Shown piece by piece: positions 35,117 through 55,526 of a stretch of DNA of 64,000 nt; position 1 is the first letter of the stretch, and each line of letters starts with the position of its first letter. The translations under genes were made by a program, and so were the position numbers. Source of the DNA: Mesorhizobium sp. J428 (GTDB taxonomy: Bacteria; Pseudomonadota; Alphaproteobacteria; Rhizobiales; Rhizobiaceae); the NCBI RefSeq assembly GCF_024699925.1, contig NZ_JAJOMX010000005.1, forward strand, positions 124,001 through 188,000, written 5' to 3'. The notes beneath the pieces are model-generated. The model did no database searches. It saw only the letters and a list, made by a program, of their open reading frames with translations, and was not told where the DNA came from.

Positions 35117-35759
35117 TCAATGAACGATGTCGAGAAGCTTTTTTGCCTTTTGCTCCATGTCGAGCCGCACATCCTGGTGGTGTTTGTCGCGCGCAACCTG
35201 GGTGATGCCCTGAACGAAATCGAAGATGGAGGCAGGCGGGTGGCCCTCTTCGGCGAGTACAGCGTCGATGATCTTCGTGGTCTCGGCCCTTGAGAATCCT
35301 CGCTTGCGCAGAAAGGTGGTCCGGTCATCATCGTCGCGCGCGACAATTTGTTCCCGCGCCGACTTGATCCCGTTGATGAATGGCATGGGCGAGGATTCAG
35401 CGAACCGGATCAGCGCCGGTTCGGCCTCGAGAGCGAAGCGAGACGCAGCGCACTTGGAATGCCGGATGGTGATTTCCTCAAAATCCTCGACCCCCCACAG
35501 ATTGCGATTCTGGCACACTGCGCGCAGGTAGAAGCTTGCGATGCCGAGGGTTCGCGCCCCGACTTCCGAGTTCCAGCAATAGAATCCCCTGAAGAAGAGA
35601 TCGGGATCACCATTGGGCAGCTGGCCTGCTTCGATCGGATTCAGATCGTCGACAAGGAAGATGAAAACATCGCGATCAGACGCATAGAGCGTCGTCGTAT
35701 CCTGCGAGACAGCGACATTGGGATTGTAGACGCCCGTGGACCAGTCGAGCACTCCGGGA
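35117..35759 (-). pseudogene. DUF932 gene, C-terminal fragment
   Basis: Reading inward from the element A junction the frame gives PGVLDWSTGVYNPN, DTTTLYASDRDVFIFLVDD, FRGFYCWNSEVGARTLGIAS, FYLRAVCQNRNLWGVEDFEE and a helical end to TGA at 35117. This is the second half of a DUF932 (phage/plasmid type) protein. The open frame continues upstream to 36298, but that part is antisense to a recombinase gene and not DUF932. The preceding residues are found at 42123-42283 and the N-terminus at 53458-53864. The left element-flanking repeat CCGGGA is at 35754-35759. Not expected to be functional. Confidence 0.88.
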
Positions 35760-35944
35760 TAGATCACGTCACGGAACTGTCCTGATAGTCTTGTATGAGA
35801 CGGTAGCGCAGGCGCCCTCAAGGGAGCATCAGCGTGCCTCCAGTCAGCATTGCGCCGGGAGATCCGCGCAGGGCGGAGGCGTAGCCGAAGCCCGGAGCGG
35901 ATTTCCCGGCGCGGCCTCGATCCAGACCCCTTTGGAGGCATGCC

Positions 35945-37090
35945 ATGGCAATGATCGTTCGTGCCGCGCCTGGCTATCCTCCAATCCCGGCCGAGTTTCC
36001 CCTCCTCCTTTCCAATCAGATGCAGATCATCGAACCCGCCTTCGCCTATCTGATTGAGCAGGCTGAGTTGCGGGCGCACTCGCTGGAAACGGTCCGAACC
36101 TATGGCGAGCATCTTTACGACTGGTTCGACACGCTCGAACAATCGGAGCTGTCCTGGGACACGGTCGATGAAGGCACCATCATGGCCTATCGAAACAGGA
36201 TGCTTGAGACGCCGAGCCCGTATACGGGAAGGCCGTATGCCCGCTCGACCATCAATGACCGGGTCCGGTCGGTCTGCCGCTTCTACGCCTGGGCGCATCG
36301 CCGCAAGATGATCGACGAACTCCCGTTCAGCTATCGGGACGCACCGCCGATCAGAGCCGCCTCAAAGGGCTTCCTTGCGCACGCGGCGGGCAAGCCTGCG
36401 CTGGGAAACATACTGACGGTCGCGGAATATGAAACCTTGCCTCGGCCGCTGCGCGTCCGCGATCTTCACCGGCTGCTGGCCGCCCTCGACATGCCCTATC
36501 GGCTGATCGCGGAGTGGGCGGTGACCAGTGGCATGCGACGGATGGAGCTATGTGCGCTCACGGTGGATCAGGTGCCGCGCAGCGACAGGCTGCACATGGA
36601 AGATCACCCGCTGGTGGGAATCCCGCTCACTGTCACGAAGGGCAGCCGAAGGCGCACGGTCTATCCGCCGCTGAGGCTCATCGACCGCACCAACTGGTAT
36701 ATCGGAGAAGATCGCGCGGGGCTCATAACGCGGCTGCGGCGACGAGATTCGAGTTACGCGCCGCCGAATACGCTGTTCCTCAACAGACGTGGCGCGCCAA
36801 TCACCAAAGCCCGGTTGTCGGCCGCGTTCGCGCGCGGCTTTGCCGCGGCGGGGTTGGACGGGTCTGCCCATTGGCTGCGACACACCTTCGCGACGGTCAT
36901 GCTGGTGCGGCTACAGGCGGAAGCGCAACGCAATCCCGACATCAATCCCCTCAAGGTCCTCCAGGTCCTGCTTGGTCATGCGTCGATCGAGACGACGGCG
37001 ATCTATCTGCGCTGTGTCGAATTGCATGGAGACGAGATCGCCGAAACGATCGAGTATCTCTACGGACGCGTGATCGACGATGCGTACTGA
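35945..37090 (+). CDS. Tyrosine recombinase, first of the trio (TnpA-like)
   Basis: 381 residues. The N-terminal SAM-like core-binding domain (SLETVRTYGEHLYDWFDTLE) precedes the catalytic domain: Arg I in SGMRRMELCAL, box II HWLRHTFATVM, and LLGHASIETTAIYL with the nucleophile Tyr. All four signature residues are visible. Length is close to Tn554 TnpA. The gene starts 185 bases inside the left end of element A and its stop overlaps the next recombinase start by 11 bases. It probably catalyses strand exchange at the element ends together with the two following recombinases. Confidence 0.9.
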   Translation: MAMIVRAAPGYPPIPAEFPLLLSNQMQIIEPAFAYLIEQAELRAHSLETVRTYGEHLYDWFDTLEQSELSWDTVDEGTIMAYRNRMLETPSPYTGRPYARSTINDRVRSVCRFYAWAHRRKMIDELPFSYRDAPPIRAASKGFLAHAAGKPALGNILTVAEYETLPRPLRVRDLHRLLAALDMPYRLIAEWAVTSGMRRMELCALTVDQVPRSDRLHMEDHPLVGIPLTVTKGSRRRTVYPPLRLIDRTNWYIGEDRAGLITRLRRRDSSYAPPNTLFLNRRGAPITKARLSAAFARGFAAAGLDGSAHWLRHTFATVMLVRLQAEAQRNPDINPLKVLQVLLGHASIETTAIYLRCVELHGDEIAETIEYLYGRVIDDAY

Positions 37091-38846
37091 CCGCCGTCGC
37101 ATCGACCGTCGGCTATCGGATGAGGCCCAACCCACGGTCTCGATTGAAGGTGGGTCGGTCATGCTGTTCCGGGATGCGTGGGGCGAGCCGGTGCAGCGGT
37201 TCGACCTCGGGCAACTCAATCTCCCGGCCGAGCTTGTTGCTCCCTATGCCGAGGCGTTCCGGGGACATCATGCGGCGTCGTCACCCGCCACGCGTCACCA
37301 GTGCTGGAACGCACTGAAGTTCTTTGCCCGCTTTCTCGCCGATAGCGGCAGTGTTCAGGCACCGGCTGATTTGACGACCGAATTGTTCGGCCGATACATC
37401 TTATGGCTGGACGCCTTGTCTTCCCGAACCGGCAAACCCTGTGCTCCGGGTCTGCGTCACAATCGCTATCAGCCGGTCAAGCTTCTGACCGAGTGGATGG
37501 CGAGACGACGGCCGGATCTGCTGCCGGCACGCCCATCCTTCCCCTTCAATCCGTTTCCCGGCAGGCATGCGCCGAAGGAAGGCGGCCGGCTGTCCGGCTC
37601 GCAGCTCAAGGCTATCCTGCGGTCCTGCTATGAAGAGATCGACGATGCCTGGGCACTCTTTGAGGAAGGACAGCGACTGCTTGCGGCTCCGGCAAGGAGC
37701 GACGATCCGGACGGCTTTGAAGCAATGTTGCGGGAATTCCATCGCCTCGGGCACGGCGTGATGCCATCGCGTCGTGCCTTGCCAGATCGGCTCGGTCGAA
37801 GGTTATACCTTCATGGTGGACACGACAGGTTCGAACGCCATCTTCACGTAACGCCAGACTGCCTGGCCTCCTTCTTCATCGCCATTGCGATCCAGACGGC
37901 GGGAAACGCCGAGGCGCTCCGGCTTATCGACCGCGATTGCATCGAGCCTCATCCGCTGATCGAACATCGGACGATGATCGACTGGCAGAAGGGCCGCGCC
38001 GGACACCTGTTCAAACGCGCGCAGCGCCGATCCTTCGATCGCCGGCGGCGCTATGCGGCACCCAATCTCATCGACAAGGTGCTGAAAATGACCGCGTCAC
38101 TGGCGGGGCGCGCACCTGCGAGTGAAAAGGATCGGCTGTTCCTGATGCGCAGGCCGGGCCGGGACGTCGGCGTCATCCAGCGCACGACCCTCGAAGGCGC
38201 CATGGCTCGATTCATCGAGCGGGCAAACCGGCGTATCTATGCATGGAATGCCGAACATCCCGACCAATTGCGAACGGCGTTGCCGCGCTTCCACACGAGG
38301 ATGTTCCGGGGCAGCGTCGCCATCGAGCACTATCGAGCATCGGGCGGCGACGTGCGCGCGGCGCAGAGCGTGCTCAATCATGCCAGCCCGGAACTCACCG
38401 ATCGCTATATCAGGGGAGATCAAAGCCGCGCGCTCCAGCATGGAACCATCGCCAGGTTGCAGACTATGATGATGTCCTGGATCCTTGAACCTCCCGGTGA
38501 AGCCAGGCAATGTTCGTCACCGTCGGCCCTTGCCGCGGAGATGTTCGGCCATCGCTGTACCGATCCGACGGCAGGTGGCGAAAAGCTCTGTCCTCACTTC
38601 GGCGGCTGCCTGTCCTGTCCGGGCCTGGTGGTGCCGATCGATGCAACGCATCTGGCGCGCATCCTTCTGGCGATAGAACAACTGGAGAAGGCCCGCACAC
38701 GCCTCGACCGGCAAAGGTGGGCACTGATCTACAAGCCCAGCCACGATCTTCTGGTCGAGAGTATTTTGCCGGACTTCCCTGTCGAACTCCACGGCGAAGC
38801 GCGCGCGCTGATGGCCTCGCTGCCCGCCTTGCCGACACTGGAGTGA
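37080..38846 (+). CDS. Tyrosine recombinase-like protein, second of the trio (TnpB-like)
   Basis: 588 residues, overlapping the previous gene. It has a core-binding domain (HAASSPATRHQCWNALKFFARF) and a C-terminal recombinase fold with FHTRMFRGSVA and VLNHASPELTDRYI (Tyr). Where Arg I is expected it reads TAGNAEALRLID, so the first catalytic Arg seems to be replaced by Asn. A Cys-rich tail (GGEKLCPHFGGCLSCPGLV) may bind zinc. The partner role may be structural. Its counterpart in element B also lacks this Arg. Confidence 0.82.
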   Translation: MRTDRRRIDRRLSDEAQPTVSIEGGSVMLFRDAWGEPVQRFDLGQLNLPAELVAPYAEAFRGHHAASSPATRHQCWNALKFFARFLADSGSVQAPADLTTELFGRYILWLDALSSRTGKPCAPGLRHNRYQPVKLLTEWMARRRPDLLPARPSFPFNPFPGRHAPKEGGRLSGSQLKAILRSCYEEIDDAWALFEEGQRLLAAPARSDDPDGFEAMLREFHRLGHGVMPSRRALPDRLGRRLYLHGGHDRFERHLHVTPDCLASFFIAIAIQTAGNAEALRLIDRDCIEPHPLIEHRTMIDWQKGRAGHLFKRAQRRSFDRRRRYAAPNLIDKVLKMTASLAGRAPASEKDRLFLMRRPGRDVGVIQRTTLEGAMARFIERANRRIYAWNAEHPDQLRTALPRFHTRMFRGSVAIEHYRASGGDVRAAQSVLNHASPELTDRYIRGDQSRALQHGTIARLQTMMMSWILEPPGEARQCSSPSALAAEMFGHRCTDPTAGGEKLCPHFGGCLSCPGLVVPIDATHLARILLAIEQLEKARTRLDRQRWALIYKPSHDLLVESILPDFPVELHGEARALMASLPALPTLE

Positions 38847-38850
38847 AACT

Positions 38851-40713
38851 ATGGCGCTGGCTGCACCGAGCAAACGAAATGCTCCCGCACTGCCTCAGGC
38901 AATCTCCTCGACCTCGACCTGGAATGACGACATATGGCGCTTCGATCTTACCCGACCCGGTGTAACCGACACTAGCCGGACGATCGACTGGACGTTCGAG
39001 CTTCTCGATGGCAGCCGGTTCACCGACCCGACATGGACGGTGTTGCGCGAGACCGTCAAATGCTTCCTGTGGTCGCTCAGAACAGACCCGCCGACAGGCA
39101 AGCGAAGGCTCGGACCCAGTTCCCTCATCTCGATCTTCCACCAGATGCGTGTTCTGGTCTGCTGGATGGTCAGCGAAGACTATGACCGATTCAATCAGCT
39201 TGATGCCTATGCTGCGGCCCGATTCATGACCACGCTGACGGAACGACCGGGACGAAAAGGCGAAGCGCTGTCGCTTGGAACCCGAGCCGGGTATCTGTCG
39301 ACGCTGGCGCGCCTCCATTCTCAACGTGAGAAACTGGTCGACGGCGTTCCCGATGATCTTCGCAGATTCCTGGATGAATACGGCCCCCGACTTCCCCGCC
39401 TCGATCGACAGGGGCGAGGCTTCCCCTATACGCCAGATGCGGTTGCAACGGCGCTGATCGGCGGCGCCCTCCGGCTCATCGGCGCGCCAGCCGACGATGT
39501 GATCGCGCTCCGCGATCGGGCCGCGGTTGCTTATGCCTACCGGCTTGATGGCAGGCCGACGCCGGCGAGAGAAGCGGAGGCTCGTCGAATGCTCGATGAC
39601 TTCTCCTTCTCGACCTTGCCGAACGAGGACAGCCCATGGCACGCGCCAGTCGTGCAGTTGAAAGACATCCATAAGCTGATCGATCGCATCTACGATGCCT
39701 GCTTTGTGGTGATCGCCTGGCTCGTCGGAGCGCGCGTCTCGGAAATCCTCGGGCTCGAGGCCGGATGCATCGAGCGACATGTCGGCCCGGATGGCCAGGA
39801 GGTCACCTATCTGCATGGACGGATTTACAAGATGGCGACGGGCGACGGTGGCCAGCCTCATCGTTGGATCGCATCCAAACCCGTGGTCCGTGTCGTCGAC
39901 GTACTGGAGCGGTTGTCGGCACCCATCCGCAAGAAGCTTGGGACACGCAATTTGTGGATGCTGACGCGGGATCCAGCGCTGCTGCGACAGCCGATCGGCA
40001 TCCCACACAGTGGAGCCTTCGGCGGCCGGCTGAACAGCAGCTTCCGAACAATGCTCGACCTTCCTCTTCATCAAGGAAGACCTTGGCACCTGAACGCGCA
40101 TCAGGGACGGAAGACGTTCGCGCGCTTCATCGGCAAGCGCGACAGGACAGGCCTTCATGCCTTCCAGGAGCATCTCGGACACGTGAGCCGGGTGATGACC
40201 GATACCGCCTATGTGGGCACAGACTTCGAGCTCGCCGAATTGATCAACGACGAAATCCTGAGGGAAACACGGGCAGCGCTCGAGGACCTTCTGACGGCGT
40301 CAAATCTGTCGGGCCATGCCGGGCGCATGATCGCGTCACGGTCGCCGTTCCGGGGCCGCACACACGATGGCGATCTCGGCGAATATATAGACTTCGTCCT
40401 GAAAGACAGCGGAATGGTGCTTGGCGTCTGCGACTGGGGTTACTGCCTCTATCGTCGTGAGCATTCAGCTTGCCAGGGCGATGACCACGGACCGAATGCA
40501 GTGTTCCGCACACAGAGCGCATGCGCCCGCTGCGCCAATTTTGCGGTCAGCGAGCGCCATAGAGCGGTTTGGGAGGATCGGAAGGTGCGCAATGCTCAGT
40601 TGCTTGAGCATCCTGCCCTCGATCGTGAAAGCCGTAAGCTCGCTCAAGAGCGCATCCTCGAATGCGATCGAATCCTCCGGGGGCTGGATGGGGAGAGCGG
40701 GGGTGTCCGGTGA
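38851..40713 (+). CDS. Tyrosine recombinase, third of the trio
   Basis: 620 residues, starting four bases after the second recombinase. The catalytic domain has Arg I (VGARVSEILGLEA), box II HQGRKTFARF, and HLGHVSRVMTDTAYVG with the Tyr. The C-terminal 90 residues are Cys-rich (CDWGYCLYRREHSACQGDD, then ACARCANFAV), a probable zinc-binding region found in large recombinases of this group. The stop overlaps the GTG start of the small downstream gene. Confidence 0.86.
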   Translation: MALAAPSKRNAPALPQAISSTSTWNDDIWRFDLTRPGVTDTSRTIDWTFELLDGSRFTDPTWTVLRETVKCFLWSLRTDPPTGKRRLGPSSLISIFHQMRVLVCWMVSEDYDRFNQLDAYAAARFMTTLTERPGRKGEALSLGTRAGYLSTLARLHSQREKLVDGVPDDLRRFLDEYGPRLPRLDRQGRGFPYTPDAVATALIGGALRLIGAPADDVIALRDRAAVAYAYRLDGRPTPAREAEARRMLDDFSFSTLPNEDSPWHAPVVQLKDIHKLIDRIYDACFVVIAWLVGARVSEILGLEAGCIERHVGPDGQEVTYLHGRIYKMATGDGGQPHRWIASKPVVRVVDVLERLSAPIRKKLGTRNLWMLTRDPALLRQPIGIPHSGAFGGRLNSSFRTMLDLPLHQGRPWHLNAHQGRKTFARFIGKRDRTGLHAFQEHLGHVSRVMTDTAYVGTDFELAELINDEILRETRAALEDLLTASNLSGHAGRMIASRSPFRGRTHDGDLGEYIDFVLKDSGMVLGVCDWGYCLYRREHSACQGDDHGPNAVFRTQSACARCANFAVSERHRAVWEDRKVRNAQLLEHPALDRESRKLAQERILECDRILRGLDGESGGVR

Positions 40714-41164
40714 AAAAACGGGCATCACGCCCCAGCAAAAGCGCCGTTATGCTACTGCCCAGCGCCTGCGCGCGGCGCTTGCTCGGTTGTTGTTGGCGCA
40801 GGAGCGAGGCGCGAAGCTGTCGGTCGCCGCACTTGCGCGTGAAGCGGGCGTCGGGCGCAATGCAATCTACGTCAATCATCGCGACGTCGTTGCGGAGTTG
40901 CTGCAGGCGGCTTCGCATCGGATCGACGCTGCAGTGGCATCGAAAGAAGCGCCGGAAACCGATTGGCGCGCCGTCGCTACCGAGTTGAGGGAGCAGGTTC
41001 GCGGTCTGGCAACCGAGAATGCGATGTTGCTTCGGCGCGCGCAGGACGCCGAACAGGCAACTGCGCGCGCCGAAAAAAGAGCCGCGAAGCTCGATGCGGA
41101 ATTGCGGGCGCTGCGGTCTCCCGTGCATCTGCACGGGACGGAGCCGAACACCCGCAACCGTTGA
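40703..41164 (+). CDS. DUF6262/TnpC-like accessory transposition protein
   Basis: 153 residues from GTG 40703, overlapping the third recombinase. It has an N-terminal HTH (QQKRRYATAQRLRAALARLL, KLSVAALAREAGVGRNAIYV) and a C-terminal coiled coil (LATENAMLLRRAQDAEQATA, EKRAAKLDAELRAL). This matches the small HTH/coiled-coil protein that follows the recombinases in Tn554-type elements and influences orientation or efficiency of transposition. Its stop touches the stop of the convergent ardC gene. Confidence 0.75.
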   Translation: MSGEKTGITPQQKRRYATAQRLRAALARLLLAQERGAKLSVAALAREAGVGRNAIYVNHRDVVAELLQAASHRIDAAVASKEAPETDWRAVATELREQVRGLATENAMLLRRAQDAEQATARAEKRAAKLDAELRALRSPVHLHGTEPNTRNR

Positions 41165-42059
41165 TCAAGCGGCCTGTTCATGCCGAGCGGATTGCTGCGC
41201 GTGCATCCAATCGGCGGCTTGTTGCGCCTTGCTCGCGGCCGTGAAGATGGCGCGGGAATCGTCCTTCAACACCTTGATCCACGAGGCAACATAGGCCGCA
41301 TGATCGGGACGCGGATGGTGGGCGATCCCGAGATCGGCAAGGACAAACCCGCTGAGAATCTCGACGCAGCATTCCTCCGCGGCATAGGCAGCGGAGCCAA
41401 ACCGGCCCGAGAGATCGCGATCAAGCCGCTTCTTCGACCCCGAGGCGTGCCCGCATTCATGCAGCAAGACGCCATAGAACGACGCGGCATCGCGGAAGGA
41501 GGCGAAGTCCGGCATGAACACCGTGTCCGAAGACGGAAGATAGTAAGCTTCCGATCCGCCGAACACGGTCTTGATGTCGAGGTTGGCGATGAACGCCTCT
41601 GCGTGCGCGAGACGCTCGTTCTCCGGCAGCGTGTCCGTCGGCGGGCGCTCGTATCCGTCCACCTGAGCGACATTGAACACCGAAAATGCCCGGGCGAACA
41701 TCCGGCGGCGGCCACCTTCATCATCGTCGTCATCGTCATCAGCCGGCTCGGAGGAAGCGATCTGCTTCCACAGCACCACAGTGGTCGAATGCTCTCCCTT
41801 GCGCACCTGCGCGCCGGCGTCCTGCCATTGGCGGTAGGTCCCCCATAGACCGTCGCCGTAACCTGCGGCCATGGCTGCGACCCAAAGCGCCACCGTATTG
41901 ATGCCGCGGTAACGCTTGCCAGACGAAATATTGGTTGGCCGTGCAGCGCTCGTACCGTCGTGGAACCACGGCGGGTGCCACTCGCCTGCACCTCCCTCGA
42001 TTGCCGCGATGATCTCCGCCGTGACGCGGGTATACATCTGCCCGATCTTGAGCCGCCAT
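41165..42059 (-). pseudogene. ardC: ArdC-like antirestriction protein, probable frameshift at the N-terminus
   Basis: The frame from ATG 42037 gives 290 residues. An N-terminal ssDNA-binding domain (YTRVTAEIIAAIEGGAGEWH, GKRYRGINTVALWVAA, TYRQWQDAGAQVRKGE) is followed by a zincin metallopeptidase domain with HECGHASGSKKRL. ArdC proteins protect incoming plasmid DNA from restriction. ATG 42037 has no ribosome site. A GAGGG-preceded ATG at 42059 starts MAAQDRADVY in the neighbouring frame, and one missing base near 42035 would join the two. So either the protein is made from the weaker start or the gene is damaged. A second copy lies at 46192-47124. Confidence 0.8.
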
Positions 42060-42122
42060 GATCAGGCCCTCGCTGCGCAGGAGGTGTCAGCACTCAAGAA
42101 TACAGTTGCAAAATGACCTAAG

Positions 42123-42283
42123 CCGGGAACTTTCCAGCGCGTGTCGCCGGTGCCGTTGCCTGCGATCTTCTGAACGGCCTCCACCAGTTCGTGGTCGAAA
42201 ATCCGCCCATAGTCAGGACCTGTCACCGCGCGCAACTCCACGCGGCCGTTTTCGATCTCCAGCGTCTTGACCTGTTCGGCGCG
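42123..42283 (-). pseudogene. DUF932 gene, middle fragment between two transposons
   Basis: On the minus strand this 160-base stretch reads RAEQVKTLEIENGRVELRAV, TGPDYGRIFDHELVEAVQKI, AGNGTGDTRWKVPG without a stop. It is bounded by the GGCGCG repeat of element B (42278-42283) and the CCGGGA repeat of element A (42123-42128). KVPG continues into VLDWST of the C-terminal fragment, and the N-terminal fragment ends ...GLTSHRA. It is an island of the original plasmid backbone, 6 kb and 11 kb from its other parts. Confidence 0.88.
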
Positions 42284-42408
42284 TTATCTGAACAGTCAAG
42301 CTGTCTCAGTCGGATTTTGCGGCGTCGTTTGCCTGAAAACCGCAGGGTCCGATCGATCTCGGCCCCGTGAGACAGATTCGTGTAGCGCGCAGAGGTCCTG
42401 ACGGCTGC

Positions 42409-44670: not shown

Positions 44671-44674
44671 GGCT

Positions 44675-44914: not shown

Positions 44915-44915
44915 C

Positions 44916-45209: not shown

Positions 45210-45235
45210 CAGGCAGGTCTCCTCTTGGTCTGGTA

Positions 45236-45661
45236 TCAGGGGGCAAGCAGCAGCGGGGCGACGTAGTCGAAGGCAAAGGCGGCTGCGACGAGCACCGTTG
45301 CGCTCCACAGTGCAATCTGAACGAGACCGCTGGGGATCGGGCGTGCGCAGGCGGCGTCATCGGCGCAGGCTTGCCGCGGCTTCCAATAGACGAGGTAGTA
45401 GCCGTAGCCGAGGACGCCTACCGTCCCCGTGACGAAGAATGGCTTGTATGGCGCGAGCGCCGTCAGGTTGCCGATCCAGGCGCCGCCGATGCCGAGACTG
45501 AATAGGATGAGCGGGATGATGCAGCAGGACGAGGCGGCAAGCGCACCGAGAACACCGCCGACGGCAACCAGGCGCTGCCGCCCGGCTTCGCCACGCTGTG
45601 CCGCCGCCAGGTTCTCTGCAGTCGGCGCAATCTCCGCCGTTCCGTGTCGAAATACACTCAT
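45236..45661 (-). CDS. merT: MerT mercury transport protein
   Basis: 141 residues. Three membrane segments. The first contains the Hg-binding pair SSCCIIPLILF; a cytoplasmic loop has further Cys residues (RQACADDAACARPI). MerT takes Hg(II) from MerP into the cytoplasm for reduction. It is the first gene after the mer promoter and is divergent from merR. Confidence 0.92.
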   Translation of the reverse strand: MSVFRHGTAEIAPTAENLAAAQRGEAGRQRLVAVGGVLGALAASSCCIIPLILFSLGIGGAWIGNLTALAPYKPFFVTGTVGVLGYGYYLVYWKPRQACADDAACARPIPSGLVQIALWSATVLVAAAFAFDYVAPLLLAP

Positions 45662-45702
45662 GTCGGGCCTCGCCTTCCTTGCCGAATTCCTATCTGCGCG
45701 CT

Positions 45703-45733
45703 AATGTGCGGTCTGTAGCAACTACAGGGTCAA
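45703..45733 (-). promoter_or_regulatory. MerR-controlled mer promoter and operator
   Basis: On the minus strand a -35 box TTGACC (45728-45733) is followed by a 19-base spacer and a weak -10 near CACATT (45703-45708). The spacer holds the perfect dyad CTGTAG-TTG-CTACAG (45713-45727). A long 19-base spacer with a central dyad is the hallmark of MerR-activated promoters, which MerR-Hg(II) untwists. It lies in the 85-base gap between merT and merR. Confidence 0.88.
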
Positions 45734-45746
45734 GAGGGAGTTTGCG

Positions 45747-46175
45747 ATGCGCGATCACACCGGCGTGAAGGGCCTGCAGCGGGCCGAGCTCGCGCGGCGG
45801 ACGGGCAGCAATCTGGAGACCGTGCGCTATTACGAGAAGGTCGGGCTCTTGCCCGAGCCGCCACGCACGATGGCGGGCTATCGGAGCTACGACACCGCGC
45901 ACGAGCGGCGGCTCCGCTTCGTCTTGCGGGCGCGCGAGCTCGGCTTCTCGCTCGATGAGATCCGTGAGCTGCTGCGTCTCGTCGACGAGCGCGACCGGCC
46001 TTGCGCCGAGGCAAGCACTATCGCCGCGACGCATCTCGACGACGTGCGGGCGAAGATCGCCGATCTGAAGCGCATGGAAAGAGTGCTGAAGGACGTGGTC
46101 GCGCAATGCGCCGGCGGCACGCGGCCGGAATGCCCGCTGATCGAGACGCTGTTCCAGGAATCGGCTGTCAACTGA
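45747..46175 (+). CDS. merR: MerR mercury-responsive regulator
   Basis: 142 residues. N-terminal MerR-type winged HTH (RAELARRTGSNLETVRYYEK, GLLPEPPRT), a long dimer helix, and three Hg-binding cysteines in the expected places (RPCAEAS, AQCAGG, ECPLIE). It represses and, with Hg(II), activates the divergent mer operon through the dyad at 45713-45727. Ribosome site AGAGGGAG precedes ATG 45747. Confidence 0.93.
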   Translation: MRDHTGVKGLQRAELARRTGSNLETVRYYEKVGLLPEPPRTMAGYRSYDTAHERRLRFVLRARELGFSLDEIRELLRLVDERDRPCAEASTIAATHLDDVRAKIADLKRMERVLKDVVAQCAGGTRPECPLIETLFQESAVN

Positions 46176-46191
46176 TCGAGTTGAAGGGCGC

Positions 46192-47124
46192 CTATGCGGC
46201 GCCCCTGACATCGTGCTCACGAGTCTCGGCCTGCTGGTCGTGCATCCAGTCGGCGATCTGCTGTGCCTTGCTGGCAGCGGTGAAGATGGCGCGCTTGTCG
46301 GAGCGCAGCACCTCGAGCCATGAGGCGATGTAGCGGGCGTGGTCGGGCCGCGGCTCGACGCTGAGATTGAGATCGGCGCAGATCATGGCGCTCAGGAGCT
46401 CGACCGTGCATTCCTCCATGGCGTAAGCGGCCGAGCCGAACCGTCCGGAAAGATCGCGGTCGAGGCGGTGCCTGGCGCCCGAGGCGTGCCCACATTCGTG
46501 AAGCAGCACGGCGTAGTAGGCGACGGCGTCGCGGAAGCAGGCGAAGTCGGGCATCTGCACATGGTCCCTGGAGGGGATGTAACAGGCCTGCGATCCGCCG
46601 TGGTGGATGTCGATGCCGAGAGCGGCGCAGAAGCGTTCGGCATGCGCGATCCGTTCGGCCTCGGGCAGCACCGGCATCTCGGGCGGCGTGTAACCGTCGA
46701 CCTGCGCGCAGTTGAAGACCGTATAGCCGCGGGCGAACATGCGCTGGGCGGGCTCGTCGCGATCCTCGTCGCCGTCCTCAGCGTCTGCCTCACTGTTGCG
46801 ACCGGAGATCTTCCAGAACACGACCAGGTGGCCGCGCTCGCCCTTGCGAACCTGAGCGCCGAGCGCCTGCCATTGGCGGTAGGTGGCCCAGATGCCAACG
46901 GAATAGCCCGCCGCTTGCGCCGCGGCCCAGAGCGCGATGACGTTGATGCCGCGATAGGCCTTGCGCGAGGCGAGGTTGACGGGCGTGGTGATGGCCGATC
47001 CGTCATGATGCCAGGGCATCCGGTACTCGCCGGCGCCGGCCTCTATGGCGGCGATGATCTGGCTGGTGACGCGCTCGTAGACATCGTTGCCAGTCCGGGC
47101 TTGGCTGCTGCGATTGGTGGTCAT
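46192..47124 (-). CDS. ardC: ArdC-like antirestriction protein
   Basis: 310 residues from ATG 47124, behind a strong AGGAGG. It has the N-terminal ssDNA-binding domain (VYERVTSQIIAAIEAGAGEY, KAYRGINVIALWAAAQAAG) and the C-terminal zincin metallopeptidase with HECGHASGARHRLDRD. The acidic loop between the domains is variable. It is homologous along its length to the element A copy but clearly diverged, so the two were not made by a recent duplication. ArdC-type proteins guard transferred DNA against restriction. The ribosome-site region is part of a large palindrome (47126-47293). Confidence 0.9.
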   Translation of the reverse strand: MTTNRSSQARTGNDVYERVTSQIIAAIEAGAGEYRMPWHHDGSAITTPVNLASRKAYRGINVIALWAAAQAAGYSVGIWATYRQWQALGAQVRKGERGHLVVFWKISGRNSEADAEDGDEDRDEPAQRMFARGYTVFNCAQVDGYTPPEMPVLPEAERIAHAERFCAALGIDIHHGGSQACYIPSRDHVQMPDFACFRDAVAYYAVLLHECGHASGARHRLDRDLSGRFGSAAYAMEECTVELLSAMICADLNLSVEPRPDHARYIASWLEVLRSDKRAIFTAASKAQQIADWMHDQQAETREHDVRGAA

Positions 47125-47125
47125 G

Positions 47126-47293
47126 GGTGCCTCCTGTGCTCGCCCTCTCCGTCGAGGGCGAGGCGGCAGGGGCAGACGCGGCGAGCCGGCCCGTCACACC
47201 CTGTTCTCGGTGCTGGTGCGGAACAGGGTTGATGGGCCGGCAGCGTCTGCCACAACCCGAGCCCTGCCTCGACGGGCGAGCACAGGAGGCACC
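47126..47293. repeat. 168-bp imperfect palindrome upstream of ardC
   Basis: Outer arms: GGTGCCTCCTGTGCTCGCCC (47126-47145) has an exact inverted copy at 47274-47293. Further inward, GTCGAGG, CAGACG and GCCGGCCC recur in inverted order with gaps. The centre pairs ACCCTGTTC (47198-47206) with GAACAGGGT (47221-47229). The outer arm contains the AGGAGG ribosome site of ardC, so the inverted copy looks like a duplicated and flipped ardC leader. It may form a cruciform. Confidence 0.85.
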
Positions 47294-47342
47294 GGCCATG
47301 ATCGGCGGAGCGCGGACCGACCGGTGCGTGGATACGCGGCTC

Positions 47343-47784
47343 TCAGCCGGCGCCGTCTTGGGGCGAGCGCCGCAACGGAATGACCCTCGTGTTGCCGGAT
47401 CGGGCCAGTTCCTCCCGCAGGCCCTCGATCACGGCATCACGCTCGGCGACCTGCAACGTCAGCACCTGGATACGCTGCGCGAGCGTGCGGGCGAGCGCCC
47501 GCAGCTCGGCCATCTCGGCCCCGCGCACGGCGCGCAGTTCCGCTTCGAGTGCGCGGATGCGTCCCTTGAGCACCAGGGGCGACGATTGCCGGCGGCGCGC
47601 TTCGGCGGTACGGAACTCGGCGAGCACATCGACCGCGCGGTTCGCCGTCGCCCGGCTGACGCCGGCCTCGCGCGCCAGGTTTGAGACTGTCAGCGCGCCG
47701 TCGGGTACGCTCGGGGCGGCCGTCGAGCAGCCGCGCCATGGCCGCCCTCAGCGCGGCTTCGCTCTTCGGCCCGAGCGCGGTCAT
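47343..47784 (-). pseudogene. DUF6262/TnpC-like gene, frameshifted
   Basis: The first frame starts ATG 47784, overlapping the recombinase stop, with TALGPKSEAALRAAMARLLD. Near 47710 the reading moves one base over and continues VPDGALTVSNLAREAGVSRA, TANRAVDVLAEFRTAEARRR and a coiled coil (IRALEAELRAVRG) to 47343. Joined it gives about 147 residues, an HTH plus coiled coil like the intact copy at 40703-41164. Decayed or mis-sequenced. Confidence 0.75.
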
Positions 47785-49942
47785 GCATCACCGTCCATGA
47801 GCGGTGCGATCAGCCGGCGCTTGCGCTCGTTGTCCGCAAGGATCGCCGTGCGCTGCAGCGGCGACAGGCGCCGGTCGGCCAGAAGCGCTTCGCCCTCGGC
47901 GATCGAAGCCTGCCACGGCTCGCGGTGCCGGTCGGTCAGGCAGGCGTTCGGGCAGCGGTCGGGGCTGCATCGCGACAGGGCTGGCGCCGTTTGCTCGGCA
48001 TCCGGTGCATCTTTGAGGCAGAGCGCGGTCGCCGCATCGAACAGGCAGTCGTTGAGGAAGCCGACATGCAGGGTCCGGCCGAGATGGGCGAGCATGGTGC
48101 GCAGCCGCTTGCGGTCCGTGATCCGGCCCGGAAGATCGCCAAGCTCGTGCTGGACGCGGGCGAACTCGCGGAGCAGTCGGTGAGCGCCTGGCCCCGCCGG
48201 GCCTTCACGGCGAAGACAGGCCTCGTAATGGGCGACAATATCGTCGAGTTGGCCGAGCGCACGCTCGCGCTCGATCGCCAGGCGGAAATCGGCCGGCGCC
48301 GATCCGGCATAGCCCTCGAACATGGCGACCGAGGCATGCTTGTACTGGATCTTGCCCGCGACCGTGCCGAACGGCCGGTTGGCGATTACCAGGCGATGGT
48401 GCGGCGCAGTTGCCGTGTCGTGAACTTCCATGGCTCGTCGCCGACGCGCGGGATCGCCGGTCCCCCTTCCGAGCGTCCATCGAGGCCGTCGCGGAACAGG
48501 TTGAGCGTCGGCGTCGCACCCATCCCGAGATGATCGTTGCTCCAGGGCCAGTCCTTCAGCGCCACCCACAGCGACGACAATCCCTTCTCCTTGCGATTGC
48601 GCGCCGAGAGTACCTCCATGACCGCGACGGCGCGGGCGACCGGCTCGATCGTGATCCAGTCGGCCTGAGCGCCTCGTGCCCCATGGCGCTTGTAGACGGT
48701 GCTGCGCACCCGGTAGCGCTCGACCAGGCCGTCGGCGCTGCGCATCACCGACACGCAACCCGGCTGCATCGCCTGCACCTCGCTGTCGCGCATGCCGGTG
48801 AGGTAGGCGCAGACGAGATAGCAGGCACCCTGCAGCATCCGTTCCTCGCGGGCGAGGCTGAGGGCGTCGAAGCGCTCGCGCCATGGCAAGCCGGTGTCCG
48901 GATCGGTCGAGATCGGCGTGTCGAGGCCGCCCACCTCGGTGCCGAGCTCGGCTGCCGCCTGCTCGATCAGCCGCGCCGTCGGTTCGGACTGGCTGATGCG
49001 GCCGCTCTCTCGCGCACCGGCGTGAAGCCGCATCAGGTGAAGATTGTAGGGCGGGGTCTGTTCGCCGGTGAGCGGGTCGATGCGGCGGGCGACGTTGGGC
49101 GCGTGCTCCCAGATCGGTACGCCTCGGCCCATGGCCCGGCGCACGTCGAGCCACTTCGCCACGCGGGCGCGATAGGTGCTGGCGACGGCTCGTCCGGTCC
49201 GCTCGTCCCGCGCCATCACCTTTGCGCAGCGGGCTTCGAGAGCGTCCAGTTCTGCCCGCGCGGCGAGGATATCGGACGCATAGACTTCGACATATCTGAG
49301 CGCCCAGCGCAGCATGGCGCCGATGACCGGCTCGGGAATCCGCGGCGTGGCGTTCTCGGCGGGCGCCGGCGGCCGGCCCGCAACGCGGTGCGCCGCACGT
49401 CCACGCCACGGCAGGAAACCTATGCCGCCGCCGGTTAGCCATGGCGCCAGGTGATGCAGGTCGATCGGCACCTCGACATACTTCACCGTCTCGTGCGGCG
49501 TCCGCCGCCCGCCGTCGCGGGCATGCACCAGGTAGGCGTCGAGCAGCGCCTGATCGATCCGGCTGAGATCGACGGCGCCAGTCCGCGCGCGGAGGAACGC
49601 GGCGAAATGCTGGACGTAGCGCAGCAGCCGGATCGCCGAGGTCGCGCCGCAGGGCGCCCGGTATCCCGGCACATGAATGCGCAGCCGGGCGATCACATAC
49701 TCCTTCGCCAACCGTCGCGTGACGGGATCGGCGATGCCGGCGAAGTTCAGCCGGTAGTTGCTGTAGCGGGCGTTGACCCGGAAGATGGCGGCGCCCAAAT
49801 CCCAGAGATCGTCCCCGAAGCGGGGAAGCTCACTGCGGTCGACATCGTCCCTGACCGCGACACCGGCAAGCACGGGCTCGCCGTCGCCATAAATGGCCGA
49901 CGGCAACGACGTCCGCGGCGAGAGCGTGATGGAACCCGGCAT
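47781..49942 (-). pseudogene. Tyrosine recombinase, third of the element B set, frameshifted
   Basis: The first frame, ATG 49942 to 48386, gives 518 residues with core-binding domain and Arg I (TGMRDSEVQAM), stopping just after RQLRRTIAW. The next frame continues IANRPFGTVAGKIQ and YKHASVAMFEGYAGS with the Tyr, then a Cys-bearing C-terminus to 47781. A single missing base near 48385 explains the break (TGG-TA-ATC for TGG-TAC-ATC). The frame carrying the end is also open far upstream, but that part is antisense noise. Loss of the Tyr from the main frame would inactivate it. Confidence 0.8.
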
Positions 49943-51785
49943 TATGGCGCTGCCGCTTCGGGCGGCAGGTAGATGAGCGCCGGGTCCGACGCCGCAATCT
50001 GGCGAGCCTCCTCAATCTCCGCGTCGGCAAACCGGGACAGAATCTGATCGGCAATGCGTCCGTGAACGCGGCCGAACTTGGCGATCCAGTCGCCTTCGCT
50101 GAGCGCCTGCCGTTGTGCCCGGATGAAGTTGAGGAATGCGAGAAGCGCGGGCAGCTTGCGGGCGGTAATCACCGCATTGCTGCATTCGAGACACCCCCAG
50201 AAGGGCGACGGACAGGCTTCCCCTTCTAGCCCGAACGGGCTCTTGTAGAAGCCGGCGCAACTGGCGAGCCAGACATCCTGCTCGCCGCCGAGCAGCGCGC
50301 CGATCGCGGCGGTACCGGCAACGGGAAGACTGGTTGCCTGCTCGGGATCGGCCAGGACGGCACCCTCCTCTTCCGAGGACAGGACGCACGGCCGCAACGC
50401 GGCATCGAGCGCGATCGCACATGGCGTCGGCCACGGTCGCCTCATGCAGGTGGCGAAGCGCGGGGATATCGGCGTAGTGATCGGCCGCGACTGCGACGCT
50501 GTGGCCAACGGCGAAGCGGTCAAGCTGGCCACCGGTGCGCCGATGCCCATGCCGCCTTGTGCGTCTTGCGCAGGCGCGTCAGGTTGAGGCGAAGGGGCCG
50601 GCCCTGTTCATCGAGGATGCCGCTTCGGCCGATCCATGAAGCCACGGGCTCCTTCATGCTGATAGGACGCGGGGTCAATCGGCCCCAGGCGCAGTGGACC
50701 CAGAGCGTGTCGGCGCCAAGCCGGCTTCTCGCCGGACCGGTCCATTGCAGCACCTTGCGGATCAAACCGCCCGGCGTCGAGGAGCCGCCGTCGCGCCCGC
50801 GCAGCCGCTTCCACTCGGCGCCGCGCGCCCGCCGCTTGCAATACTCAACCTCGACATAGCCGCCGGACGGGTTCTTCAGGCAGTCCGCCCGCAGGCTCTT
50901 GATCGCTTCGATCTCCAGGCCGGTGTCGAGCGAAATGAGGACGATGAGCGGCACGAGGTCGGCAGCGATCAGATGCCGGCGGCCGTGCAGATCGTGGATC
51001 AGGCGATCGTTCGGCAGGCCGCTTTCACGGCGCAGCGTGTAGAGGCACTTGAAGAGAGCATGCCGGTGCCCGATGACGCCTTCCGCGTCGATCACCGCCA
51101 TCACCTGTTCATGCGCCCTCGCCAGAACGCGGCCCCGATCGGCATCCTCGACGGTCGGGATGCGATCGGCCTCGGCGAAGCGGCGGATGATAGCAGCGAG
51201 ATCGGCGCGTGCCGCGGTCCGCAATGCCGTGGCGATGTCGTCGCCATAGGCATCGCGCGGCCGGGCGCGCACACCCGGCCGGTCGCTCGTATACATCAGC
51301 CGTCGCGAGGCATCGGGTGGCAGAAGGCCGGGCTCCGCCGCCTCGGCGAGGCGGAGCAGGTTGAGCACCTTGCTCATTCGATGCAGCCGGTGATTGGGAT
51401 GCAGGCCGCTCTCCTCCATCCATGCGTCGAAGCCGTCGATCAAGGCAGCGCTCACGTCAGAGAGCCGTGCGACGTGCATTCCGGCGGAATCGAGATAGCG
51501 CCAGAACGTCTTGAGCGCATTGGCATAGGCATAGGCCGTCGAGATCGAGCCGGCCGGACCGCCGACCTGGCAGGCGCGCCAGAGCGCGCCGGCAAACGTC
51601 CGGGCCAGTGCCTTGCGGCCAGCGAGCATCGTCAGGTCGATCGCCCTGCTGCGGTCTGCCAGCGTGACAGTGAAGCGGAGCGACGCGATCGCAGCGGCGG
51701 CCTCGCGCTCGGGATCGGGCAGCGCCTCGGGAAAGAGGGCACGGCGGCCCGGCCGTCGTGCTGGAGCAGTCGTCGCGGCCATCAT
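49942..51785 (-). pseudogene. Tyrosine recombinase-like, second of the element B set, two frameshifts
   Basis: It begins at ATG 51785, overlapping the first recombinase (ATGA). 421 residues run to near 50540, ending after LRLNLTRLRKTHKAAW. A short stretch in another frame reads GGQLDRFAVGHSVAVAADHY and ADIPALRHLHEATVADA. From near 50420 a third frame reads ALDAALRPCVLSSEEEGAVL and a Cys-containing end to 49942. Two single-base shifts are therefore needed. Arg I is replaced (DTGLEIEAIKSL), as in the element A homologue. Joined length is about 610. Confidence 0.78.
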
Positions 51786-53191
51786 GCTGCATCACCAGCC
51801 GTATCGTCCGCCCAGCGGTCCACGGCCGCCTCGACCAGCTCCTGCGCCTCATTGAGACTGTCGAGATAGATGTAGGTGCTGGTGATGCTTGCGTGCCCCA
51901 GGAGGTGCTGGAGCTTCTGCAAGGGGTCGCCGAGCATCCGGCGATAGGCCGCGCCGTGCCGGTCGTGCGGATCGAACACGGTTCCGATCTGCTCGCGGAT
52001 CAGCATGGAGAGCATGTTGACGGCGAAGGTGTGCCGCAGAGTGTGCGGCGTCACCTCGACCTCGATACCGAAGCGGCGGCAGCGGACGCAGGCGCGCCGA
52101 AAAGCGGCTTCCCAGGTTGCGGAGGGCACAGGCCGGCCGGCTTCCGTCAGCCAGAGCAAGCCGTGCTGCGCTCGGCCAGGCGCGCCGATCAGCACGCGGC
52201 GGCGCTCACCCGGCGTCAGGCGGTCGAGCCGGACCTTCTTGCCCGCCGGATCTCTTGCCTTCCCATCCTCCGGTACCAACCACAGCGGATCGGACACCTG
52301 GGGTTCGGACCGGGCAGTGGAGATCGCGCGCTCAAGATCGACATAGTCGGCCATGAGCGCCAGCACCCGGCGGGGAACGCGGATGCGCCGCGGCCGCCCG
52401 CCCTTGGCGATCGGACCAGGAAGGTCGAAGGGAATCGAGCGTGATGCGGGCTCCGGAAGCTCGGCCAGAAGCAGGCTGCCGGCTTCGGTCAGCCGCAGGC
52501 CGGTCGTGACCAGAAGCTCGGCAAACAGCGCATTGCGCTCGCCGTTGCGGCCGCGCCACGTCCGATCTTCGGAGCCGTCGGGAAGCCGGCCCCGCAGCCC
52601 CACCTCGCGGAACAGCAGGTAGCGGCCGAGATCGATATAGCGGGTGTCGTGGCGGCGCGCGGCGCGCTCGCGGGCGCGGTTGGCCGCCACGGCGAGCACG
52701 GCGCGGCTGCCGGCGGTCCGACGAAGGGTGACGCCATAGCTGAAAGGCGAGGCAGAGATGATCCCTTCCTCGACGGCCCAGCGATAGAGCTTGTCGAGCG
52801 CGGCGATGCTTCGGTTCCAGCTCGCCGCTGAAATGCGGAACGCCGCGTCCGACAGGCGACGTGCCCGGTGAAAGGCCAGGACATCATGGCGGTCGGCCTG
52901 CCAGACCGTCTTGCCACCGCGTCGCTCGCTGAGAAAGCGCGCCCAGACGAGAATGTCGCGGGCATAGGAACGCCACGTGTTCGGCGACCGCGCGCCCATG
53001 CCCGGACAGGCGCGGAAGAACCGGTTGAGATTGAGATCGTAGCTGCCGTCATCCATCAGGATGAACGGCATGCCGTCGATCAGCCCAGCGCGCTCGACCA
53101 CGTCGAGCGCGCCGGGTGCGAGGCTCACTGCAAGGTCATCAAGGAAAAGCGGACGCGAAATAGCGTCAAGATTGGTAAAATACAAATGCAC
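51782..53191 (-). CDS. Tyrosine recombinase, first of the element B set
   Basis: 469 residues, intact. Core-binding domain (SPNTWRSYARDILVWARFLS), catalytic Arg I (TTGLRLTEAGSLLL), box II HTLRHTFAVNML, and LLGHASITSTYIYL with the Tyr. It is longer than its element A counterpart and differs widely, so the two elements are distant relatives. It starts about 265 bases from the right end of element B. It is the only undamaged recombination gene of this element. Confidence 0.88.
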   Translation of the reverse strand: MHLYFTNLDAISRPLFLDDLAVSLAPGALDVVERAGLIDGMPFILMDDGSYDLNLNRFFRACPGMGARSPNTWRSYARDILVWARFLSERRGGKTVWQADRHDVLAFHRARRLSDAAFRISAASWNRSIAALDKLYRWAVEEGIISASPFSYGVTLRRTAGSRAVLAVAANRARERAARRHDTRYIDLGRYLLFREVGLRGRLPDGSEDRTWRGRNGERNALFAELLVTTGLRLTEAGSLLLAELPEPASRSIPFDLPGPIAKGGRPRRIRVPRRVLALMADYVDLERAISTARSEPQVSDPLWLVPEDGKARDPAGKKVRLDRLTPGERRRVLIGAPGRAQHGLLWLTEAGRPVPSATWEAAFRRACVRCRRFGIEVEVTPHTLRHTFAVNMLSMLIREQIGTVFDPHDRHGAAYRRMLGDPLQKLQHLLGHASITSTYIYLDSLNEAQELVEAAVDRWADDTAGDAA

Positions 53192-53194
53192 GCA

Positions 53195-53457
53195 CGATAC
53201 CTAAGCGGAGCGCCTTCGGCGCAAGTTATTGTCTTATGTGCGAGGGGTTCCCCTCGCGCTCTCCCGCTCGCCGCGTGGCAGGGGTGCAGGACTAAGCCTG
53301 CACCCCATGAACAAGCTTGTGGAGCCGCCGCCGCGTAAAGCGTTGTCCTCGCTTCGCTGCGGGAACGCTTGACCCGGACGTCTGACGAGCTTCACCGGAA
53401 CCGTCGGTGAGGCGCTTCCATGCCTGATTCTGAGACAGGATTACAGAGTCAGGATAA
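53195..53457. other. Right terminal region of element B with hairpins
   Basis: Non-coding. It contains two perfect hairpins: GCGAGGGG-TT-CCCCTCGC near 53241 and GGGGTGCAGG...CCTGCACCCC near 53280-53306. It ends in the terminal repeat at about 53430-53457. The hairpins could be recombinase-binding structures or terminators. Confidence 0.55.
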
Positions 53458-53864
53458 GGCGCGGTGTGAGGTCAGGCCGCATGCTGAAGGTTGATGCCGG
53501 CCAGCGCGGCAGGGAGCTGCCGCAGGTAGTTCGCGGGCGCCCCGACCAGGCTGGCGAGCTGGCCGAAGCTCCAGTGCGTGGGAGCGACCGGCGCGTGCGC
53601 GTCGGGCAGCATCAACGTCAGGCGTTCGGGATTGTCGCGGCTCGCTGCGACGCGGATGTTTTCGCTTTCGACGATGCGGGTCTTGCAGCGTTTTGATCGC
53701 CTGGCCACCGAATTGTGGAGGTCGGTGAGCGAGAGATAGCGCTCGTCGGCCGGACGATTGAACCATTCAGACGAAACGCGCCCGATACGCTCGCCTTTAC
53801 TGATGTCGACCTTGTAGCCGTTGGGCGCCATGCGCGTCGGCGCGTGAATTTGCATAAGGGTCAT
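53458..53864 (-). pseudogene. DUF932 gene, N-terminal fragment
   Basis: From ATG 53864 (after GAGGAG) it reads MTLMQIHAPTRMAPNGYKVD, then YLSLTDLHNSVARRSKRCKT and NYLRQLPAALAGINLQ. Then the frame closes as HAA-stop at 53472. One frame over, the natural continuation GLTSHRA runs to the GGCGCG repeat at 53458-53463, so a small indel near 53480 occurred as well as the insertion. The sequence continues in the fragment at 42123-42283. The promoter side (53865-54151) is divergent with the DUF1173 gene. Confidence 0.87.
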
Positions 53865-55399: not shown

Positions 55400-55526
55400 T
55401 ATCGGGCACGATCGTTTTGCGGCGCGCGAGTGAAGCTACCTTACCATGCGCTAGGATGGCGCACCCAAATGTGGTGGTCACGGCAAGTTGGCTATGCATC
55501 CGATCGCATTCGTGCGAAGGTTCAGA

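Follow-up and report, generated by a model that had tools for sequence, protein, structure and literature searches.

Two probable site-specific recombinase elements at separate codons of a split DUF932-labelled plasmid gene in Mesorhizobium sp. J428

The window analysed here, a stretch of 64,000 nucleotides from Mesorhizobium sp. J428, holds a DUF932-labelled gene in three pieces, separated by inserts of 11.2 and 6.4 kb and lying between a ParB-like gene and a DUF1173 gene. The pieces were placed by blastn and tblastn with the intact DUF932 gene of Aminobacter plasmid pMDW2 (L001:5616-6812, 398 aa) as reference, and the inserts by their ends and spacers:

54152..55399, + strand: DUF1173 gene on the other flank of DUF932, as in pMDW2 (Pfam; synteny)
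53464..53864, - strand: DUF932 gene piece 1, N-terminal part (also by translation); frame lost close to the 3' end in the window's reading
53458..53463: 6-bp spacer GGCGCG, recombinase side of the 11.2-kb element
42284..53457, - strand: 11.2-kb element, 11,174 bp, TTATC-type ends
42278..42283: 6-bp spacer GGCGCG, far side of the 11.2-kb element
42122..42283, - strand: DUF932 gene piece 2, middle part, including both spacers
42122..42127: 6-bp spacer GCCGGG, far side of the 6.4-kb element
35759..42121, + strand: 6.4-kb element, 6,363 bp, TTAGGT-type ends
35753..35758: 6-bp spacer TCCGGG, recombinase side of the 6.4-kb element
35117..35752, - strand: DUF932 gene piece 3, C-terminal part up to the stop
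32822..34987, - strand: ParB-like neighbour gene (NCBIfam, under curated cut-offs)

Nucleotides 1-405, 400-561 and 556-1197 of the intact gene align to window positions 53864-53458, 42283-42122 and 35758-35117 respectively, with a 6-nt overlap at each of the two joins. A preliminary description had proposed one gene in three ordered pieces, and the intact homologue does align through all of them, although its 398 aa fall short of the roughly 410 codons given there for the restored gene. The same description had all pieces in frame; the order stands, but piece 1 as read in the window has 2 gap columns against the reference and a stop at 53474-53472. The contig is circular and untrimmed, its end repeating the locus (C5:1-14000 against window 47372-61413, 97.4% identity, many indels), and because this second reading lacks the 2 extra nucleotides they may be a sequencing error. 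Judged by the conserved element ends, the spacers of the 11.2-kb insert are GGCGCG on both sides, as described before, and the CCGGGA repeat reported for the 6.4-kb insert is the same repeat displaced by one base, its copies TCCGGG and GCCGGG agreeing at 5 of 6 positions.

The DUF932 label depends on RefSeq naming: Pfam PF06067 scores only 18-19 bits against the intact homologues (3/3), under its cut-off of 23; phrog_1362, of unknown function, matches at 2e-46. A DUF932 profile search of the host's own genome gave zero matches at E 0.001 because the family is divergent. A relative of the gene does lie on host contig C4, in a single open frame, and could soften the loss of the split copy.

Both inserts carry an operon for three tyrosine-recombinase-fold proteins (A, B and C) and a small fourth protein (D), together with passenger genes for ArdC and, in the larger one, mercury resistance:

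35945..37090, + strand: 6.4-kb element, recombinase A (tyrosine recombinase), full catalytic set (Pfam; residues)
37080..38846, + strand: 6.4-kb element, recombinase-like B, without the first catalytic arginine
38851..40713, + strand: 6.4-kb element, recombinase C, full catalytic set (AlphaFold model nearest Cre)
40421..41164, + strand: 6.4-kb element, open frame holding gene D, start not fixed
41165..42037, - strand: 6.4-kb element, ArdC gene, 84 bp inside the far end and reading inward (Pfam)
51782..53191, - strand: 11.2-kb element, recombinase A (tyrosine recombinase; Pfam PF00589/PF02899)
49942..51785, - strand: 11.2-kb element, recombinase-like B (tblastn with the 613-aa Bosea protein), not in a single frame in the window
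47781..49942, - strand: 11.2-kb element, recombinase C (tblastn with the 697-aa Bosea protein), two frames in the window
47346..47714, - strand: 11.2-kb element, matched part of small gene D (tblastn with a 146-aa Bosea protein)
46192..47124, - strand: 11.2-kb element, ArdC antirestriction gene (Pfam ArdcN and MPTase-PolyVal)
42409..44715, - strand: 11.2-kb element, merBA fusion (alkylmercury lyase / mercuric reductase), cargo (Pfam; named alike in the Bosea record)

Copies of the 11.2-kb element, 84% identical, are present in plasmids of Bosea sp. AS-1, in another gene. The contig's second reading over the B/C region of this element is full of indels. The gene D frame of the 6.4-kb element has a weak TetR_N-like match, below cut-off. 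The recombinases of the two inserts correspond one to one, in line with the earlier view that one plasmid gene holds two elements of the same general type; since their A proteins are just 25% identical, we take them to be separate insertions.

We then examined 33 related elements chosen by hand, 20 TTAGGT-type and 13 TTATC-type. Related ends with 6-bp spacers were found in 17/20 and 10/13 respectively, giving 27 elements of 5.6-12.6 kb; the two spacers of an element differ in 15 of these (9/17 and 6/10), and two plasmids of one strain (L003/L004) hold element copies with different spacers. ArdC or DUF736 is carried by at least 15 of the 33. The target gene was identified in 27: ParB-like in seven, DUF932, ArdC and DUF736 in five each, DUF6915 in four and DUF2274 beside trbI in one, a tally biased toward the block around DUF932, as target genes were partly recognised from loci gathered there, and including same-strain plasmid pairs that are not independent (L003/L004, L089/L110, L095/L119, L112/L113). 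A search for targets came up empty for L090 and L125, as did one for ends in L115, L116, L124 and L126. From plasmid to plasmid the same codons are hit again, some within conserved motifs such as the HExxH of ArdC: all seven ParB-like insertions share one codon, the DUF736 insertions with both ends share the spacer AACGGC (4/4) and those in DUF6915 the spacer CATGC[CG] (4/4). The hosts are alphaproteobacterial plasmids nearly throughout, with one betaproteobacterial. The DUF2274 case, assigned by Pfam, lies on the 5.3-Mb contig of the J428 genome itself, directly after a gene that we take to be trbI. Membership of the targets in plasmid leading regions did not emerge from the data: no oriT was located, and ArdC, DUF932 and DUF736 have 0 occurrences in the main text of PMC11541004.

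These targets bear on the suggestion, made in the preliminary description, of a preferred target and perhaps a safe landing site. Preference is borne out by a third DUF932 site, where Mesorhizobium 113-3-3 and Novosphingobium PP1Y carry an insertion, and by the 6.4-kb site, probably struck separately in Mesorhizobium sp. NZP2077. Safety of the site is not supported: insertion breaks a gene that in 293 of 317 plasmid records is present at a single place with 80% or more of its length, and DUF932 is one target of several, since relatives also land in ArdC, ParB-like, DUF736 and DUF6915 genes.

Each of the A, B and C proteins has its best match in the corresponding protein of two gammaproteobacterial plasmid operons, one from Pseudoalteromonas and one from P. 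veronii (L129), the latter of GInt-type layout and homologous in A, B and C. Both of these operons resemble, by layout, GInts and the strand-biased circularizing integrative elements (SEs). The match of B to the Pseudoalteromonas protein is at 20% identity and D has no match there, that operon being SE-like by layout only; the D proteins of the alphaproteobacterial elements match neither gammaproteobacterial operon. The first catalytic arginine is absent from B in 18/18 aligned proteins and present in C in 18/18, and a separate residue check found the second gene without it and the third with it in 15/15, a pattern that the two gammaproteobacterial operons share. One catalytic histidine of C is replaced by Y in L116 and by R in the TTATC-type element of Bosea. 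Surveys with the two A proteins at E 1e-60, each covering 297 genomes from the order, recovered 1 genome (that of J428 itself) and 4 (J428 included), a yield too small for statistics.

Four published systems invite comparison, which is made here with the available portions of their reports. GInts have at one end a four-gene operon, in which three genes encode proteins of the tyrosine-recombinase fold and the last a small protein, with cargo opposite, and they form a circular intermediate that requires all four genes (Bardaji et al. 2017, PMC5385486); they are site-specific, include Alphaproteobacteria, share the target ssb even between distant members, and are inferred to exchange strands with a 6-nt stagger (PMC5385486). 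The 6.4-kb element has such an operon at one end, as does the 11.2-kb element, although its B and C genes each fall into several frames in the window. GInts differ in that the first arginine is missing from GinC, the third gene, and not from the second as here; in imperfect flanking repeats of 10-17 nt against our 6-bp spacers, identical or imperfect, only spacers having been compared; and in targets (ssb and the genes for an ABC transporter and a ribonucleotide reductase; PMC5385486), where ours are DUF932, ArdC, DUF736, ParB-like and DUF6915 genes, in elements of the lengths (n=27) and ArdC or DUF736 content given above. SEs have the gene order intA (catalytic), tfp (not catalytic), intB (catalytic) and srap, the small fourth having a TetR-like hint, imperfect inverted ends, and 6-bp spacers that may differ between the ends as footprint and fingerprint, and they form strand-biased circles that leave no empty site (PMC10214605). 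The gene order, the ends and the 6-bp spacers have their counterparts here, including the weak TetR_N-like match and the unlike spacers of 15/27 elements. However, SE-specific proteins are reported only from Gammaproteobacteria (PMC10214605), and our elements sit on alphaproteobacterial plasmids and one betaproteobacterial plasmid. The rulB integron-like elements (ILEs) of Pseudomonas share a hot spot in a plasmid gene, three recombinases with a tetR homologue and, in one element, mer genes next to a target-gene homologue as cargo, but their target is rulB and their repeat 3 bp (PMC4542609). Tn552-II, a Tn554-like element of Staphylococcus, is also site-specific, brings an att spacer and carries a gene like its target; it has three transposition genes (tnpABC) and a 7-bp spacer, in place of four genes and 6 bp (PMC12486829).

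Taken together, we consider it likely (probability about 0.85) that two site-specific elements of the SE/GInt/ILE kind entered a divergent DUF932 plasmid gene in separate events, each at a fixed codon, and that they represent two lineages whose recombinases recognise short stretches of a small number of widespread plasmid genes. Directly visible are the element borders, spacers, operon, catalytic residues and same-codon insertions across plasmids. By analogy with known SEs and GInts, a circular intermediate would unite both element ends around 6 bp and exchange strands with the target at a 6-bp stagger, one end would keep the target's 6 bp and the other the 6 bp brought in, and the element would reach new hosts with a conjugative plasmid. 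Landing of relatives at the same codons of few conserved plasmid genes may, in our reading, be an adaptation for riding conjugative plasmids. In the available parts of PMC10214605 and PMC5385486, SEs are gammaproteobacterial and few target genes are given for GInts; here two lineages, nearly all alphaproteobacterial, have a common small set of plasmid-gene targets with codon-level repetition, which ties a little-studied transposition mechanism to plasmids, explains how such genes come to be split, and offers many natural attB/attL/attR sets for studying target choice by these recombinases.

The 6.4-kb site is also occupied in NZP2077, whose independent complete plasmid (pMSNZP2077A) has only this insert, at the same nucleotide position, and aligns gap-free across the site of the 11.2-kb insert. 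The element is more alike between the two (88.7%) than are the flanks (79-82%), with third codon positions 77-81% identical in element genes and 53-64% in flanking genes, which indicates two insertions at one position, though gene rates may differ, which leaves one shared event some probability. We therefore judge it unlikely that one old insertion was inherited with the backbone, which would make the shared site history and not specificity, even though the ParB-like neighbour lies on the same side in both plasmids. Less probable still is a pile-up of weakly selective transposons in a dead or dispensable gene, the roughly 155-bp spacing being coincidence under relaxed selection: two inserts, a frame break and the second DUF932 relative on C4 would fit it, but not the return of insertions to the very same codons from one plasmid to another, in part within conserved motifs, nor the wholeness of the gene in most records. 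An assembly misjoin can be all but dismissed; the contig does have an untrimmed overlap and many indels, yet the two readings agree on where the 11.2-kb element joins piece 1, and NZP2077 has the 6.4-kb insertion at the same position.

Site-specific landing in shared plasmid genes could also serve a more elaborate strategy, in which an element breaks a useful plasmid gene while bringing a homologue without the landing sequence, so that function is kept and the element is spared self-insertion; if true, such elements would move from plasmid to plasmid by disrupting a gene common to them and supplying a substitute for it. There is precedent in the available text on the ILE of strain FH4, which carries a RulB-like ORF (PMC4542609), and on tgl of Tn552-II, for which a 'rescue' role has been proposed (PMC12486829). 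Here, a DUF736 gene is held in 5/5 DUF736 insertions (damaged in L087) and ArdC in 5/5 ArdC insertions (itself split in L005a). Against this, no DUF932 gene is carried by the DUF932 insertions at the three loci searched (the window, L002 and L006), and the seven ParB-targeting elements have, by annotation only, no ParB gene inside other than the split target. Comparing nine pairs of carried and broken genes, seven of them by sliding windows, gave a mixed outcome: in L005b the dissimilarity of the landing window is reached by just 12 of 294 windows, and four DUF736 pairs have a one-codon indel at the landing site (4/4) but 48-58 of 93-94 windows at or below its similarity, so that it is not less similar than average, while L118 (201/299 windows by the same count) and L005a (98/193) give no signal. 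On balance we find this strategy doubtful. The HEGLH variant is not unique: among the best 120 of 3,377 ArdC homologues it occurs in 28, and may be an old subfamily state. The landing-site variant of carried ArdC is possibly of the same nature; in the Bosea pairs the carried protein has EECTVE and the target EEL(I/V)AE, and other element-borne ArdC proteins have EECCVE, EECTVE or EEIIAD at that place.

The split DUF932 gene was aligned at the nucleotide level to an intact 398-aa gene of the Aminobacter sp. MDW-2 plasmid pMDW2 (L001:5616-6812), with 79-82% identity over the three pieces. The name DUF932 is that of RefSeq, because the Pfam DUF932 model scores just under its cut-off for this family. 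In the order of the gene, and with A, B and C denoting the three tyrosine-recombinase-fold proteins of the element operon and D a small fourth protein, the features are:

53864-53458, minus strand: DUF932 piece 1, reference nt 1-405
42284-53457: 11.2-kb element with A, B, C, D, ArdC and mer genes including a merBA fusion
42283-42122, minus strand: DUF932 piece 2, reference nt 400-561
35759-42121: 6.4-kb element with A, B, C, small D and an ArdC gene pointing inward from the far end
35758-35117, minus strand: DUF932 piece 3, reference nt 556-1197

The mer neighbours in the 11.2-kb element were assigned by position in a Bosea copy. Successive pieces overlap by 6 nt in the alignment, and these overlaps are the direct repeats of the preliminary description. 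Its claim that the pieces are in frame holds for pieces 2 and 3, which align without gaps, and fails for piece 1 as read in the window, where the alignment to the homologue needs two gap columns and a stop codon occurs at 53474-53472. The undivided gene of pMDW2 is flanked by DUF1173 and, a few small genes off, by a ParB-like gene, as are the pieces in the window. HlyD-type and AcrB/CusA-type efflux genes, likely for metal efflux, adjoin the split gene at 56395-61004, and a 1,499-aa protein with strawberry-notch helicase domains is encoded at 25279-29778 on the strand of the DUF932 and ParB-like genes.

The frame break in piece 1 has to be read together with the state of the contig (C5, 203,180 bp). 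Window 47372-61413 recurs, at 97.4% identity and with numerous indels, as C5:1-14000, and a further 17.8 kb, C5:14001-31788, match C5:185414-203180 at 99.7%, the repeated ends being C5:1-31788 and C5:171372-203180 (L123, L138, L139). The contig is probably an untrimmed circular plasmid with indel errors, which, since its ends repeat each other, would be about 171 kb. The two extra nucleotides of piece 1 are absent from the second reading of the locus at the other contig end. Given the indel errors in the overlapping ends, frame breaks in window 47372-64000 should be treated with caution, and those seen here, including the ones in genes B and C within the 11.2-kb element, may be sequencing errors. 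Elsewhere in the genome, a DUF932 relative on contig C4 (86%) is a single open frame; another, on the 5.3-Mb contig, is read in three overlapping pieces and is therefore probably frame-broken.

We took in 33 elements, 20 of the TTAGGT type, to which the 6.4-kb element belongs, and 13 of the TTATC type of the 11.2-kb element. Two are in the window, six in five plasmid records (L002-L006) retrieved by similarity to the region, four in the strain's own and three other genomes, and 21 in 21 further records hand-picked from the A-protein matches listed (45 of 209; 45 of 216 plasmid records), a choice that omitted Agrobacterium, near-duplicates and many other records. Further recombinase operons in some of these loci were left outside the 33. 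For L113 and the second element of L005 the far end was the script's second choice, adopted since the split test supports it, and for L087 the junction is on the recombinase side only.

Target genes of the elements, called from homologues split across the element or from junction flanks; the same-strain pairs L003/L004, L089/L110, L095/L119 and L112/L113 are non-independent
DUF932, n=5: window twice, L002, L006, L121
ArdC, n=5: L003, L004, L005 twice, L118
DUF736, n=5: L087-L089, L091, L110
ParB-like, n=7: L092, L093, L111-L114, L117
DUF6915, n=4: L119 and L120 from the split test, L095 and L096 chiefly from junction flanks that are nearly identical
DUF2274, n=1: L122

Among the 33, no target gene was found for L090 and L125, both with ends located, and neither ends nor target for L115, L116, L124 and L126. 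In the picks made by recombinase only, a target was identified for 18 of 21, every one DUF932, ArdC, DUF736, ParB-like or DUF6915. The L122 element (G000:C1:2308000-2327500, element at 7725-19201) is a relative of the 11.2-kb element that splits DUF2274 on the strain's 5.3-Mb contig. It may sit within a chromosomal conjugation operon, as the gene directly before the split DUF2274 is one we take to be trbI.

Within target families the landing point recurs. All seven ParB-like insertions lie just before codons for (H/N)-P-x-D; the spacer, the 6 bp outside the element end, is AACGGC in all four DUF736 insertions with both ends and CATGC[CG] in 4/4 DUF6915 insertions. CGGCCA followed by TAAT is common to two DUF932 insertions, one in Mesorhizobium 113-3-3 and one in Novosphingobium PP1Y; the PP1Y record is circular, and the C-terminal part of its DUF932 gene begins at base 2. 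Two ArdC insertions land at the HE of HExxH and the two Bosea ones within EEL(I/V)AE. In Mesorhizobium L-2-11 (MesoLjLa4, L005 4004-16795) elements are nested: one is inserted in an ArdC gene, and the ArdC that it carries is interrupted within HExxH by another. At 16795, next to where one more ArdC begins, an additional end-like sequence has the same CTCGTG spacer, a hint of a third element outside these two.

The window and NZP2077 have an insertion at the same position, DUF932 nt 556-561. Identity between them is 88.7% over the element, 79.2% over the ParB-like flank, 78.9% over C-terminal DUF932 and 82.1% over the 156-nt middle part; at third positions it is 81.3% for A, 80.8% for B and 76.8% for ArdC in the element, and 63.5% for ParB-like and 53.1% for DUF932 in the flanks. 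On these sequence comparisons, two insertions at one position are the best fit. Copies of the 11.2-kb element at 84% identity occur on two plasmids of Bosea sp. AS-1, in ArdC genes and with spacers that differ, so this lineage, too, is mobile between plasmids and between genes.

The element ends read TTAGGT or a close variant in the first type and TTATC in the second, and 6-bp spacers lie outside them in both types. Among TTAGGT-type sequences, the tyrosine-recombinase catalytic set is complete in A and C (16 A, 15 C sequences) and B lacks the first catalytic arginine (15 B sequences); the histidine of C is replaced by Y in L116, and by R in the Bosea element of the TTATC type. The structure model of C best matches Cre, with a mean pLDDT of 72 that falls below 50 over much of 427-566, including part of the catalytic region. 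For both types A, B and C best match A, B and C of same-layout operons on a Pseudoalteromonas and a Pseudomonas veronii plasmid, operons selected by layout and called neither SE (strand-biased circularizing integrative element) nor GInt in the tables. By analogy with SEs and GInts (PMC10214605, PMC5385486), the two ends of an element would be joined across 6 bp in a circular form, which would then recombine at a 6-bp target. In 15 of the 27 elements for which both ends are located, all seven in ParB-like genes among them, the two spacers differ from each other, in agreement with the ‘brought-in’ spacer of SEs. No relaxase or transfer gene is among the genes identified in the two window elements, and we infer that the elements rely on the plasmid for transfer. 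Known hot spots for such elements include rulB (PMC4542609) and ssb (PMC5385486). No description of the genes found here as targets turned up in a literature search on DUF932/ArdC/DUF736/ParB, GInt, plasmid insertion sites, tyrosine recombinases and rhizobia, judged by listings and with subscription papers mostly outside its coverage.

The cargo family is the target family in 10 of 27 elements, which suggests that the broken gene is replaced by the carried one. ArdC is found as cargo in the two window elements, L002-L006, L118 and L121, DUF736 in the DUF736-targeting elements, and a pRiA4b ORF-3 family gene in L092 and L111-L113. Tests for a recoded landing site in the carried gene gave mixed results. 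In L087 (Bradyrhizobium SK17, 17787-18049) the start of the carried DUF736 is fused to the 3' part of a target-like DUF736, as if by deletion between the two homologues, and a second recombinase operon follows. In Sphingomonas sp. FARSPH p03 (L114, 22912-23149), aph(3')-Ia lies beside IS26, by PLSDB prediction, several kb outside the element.
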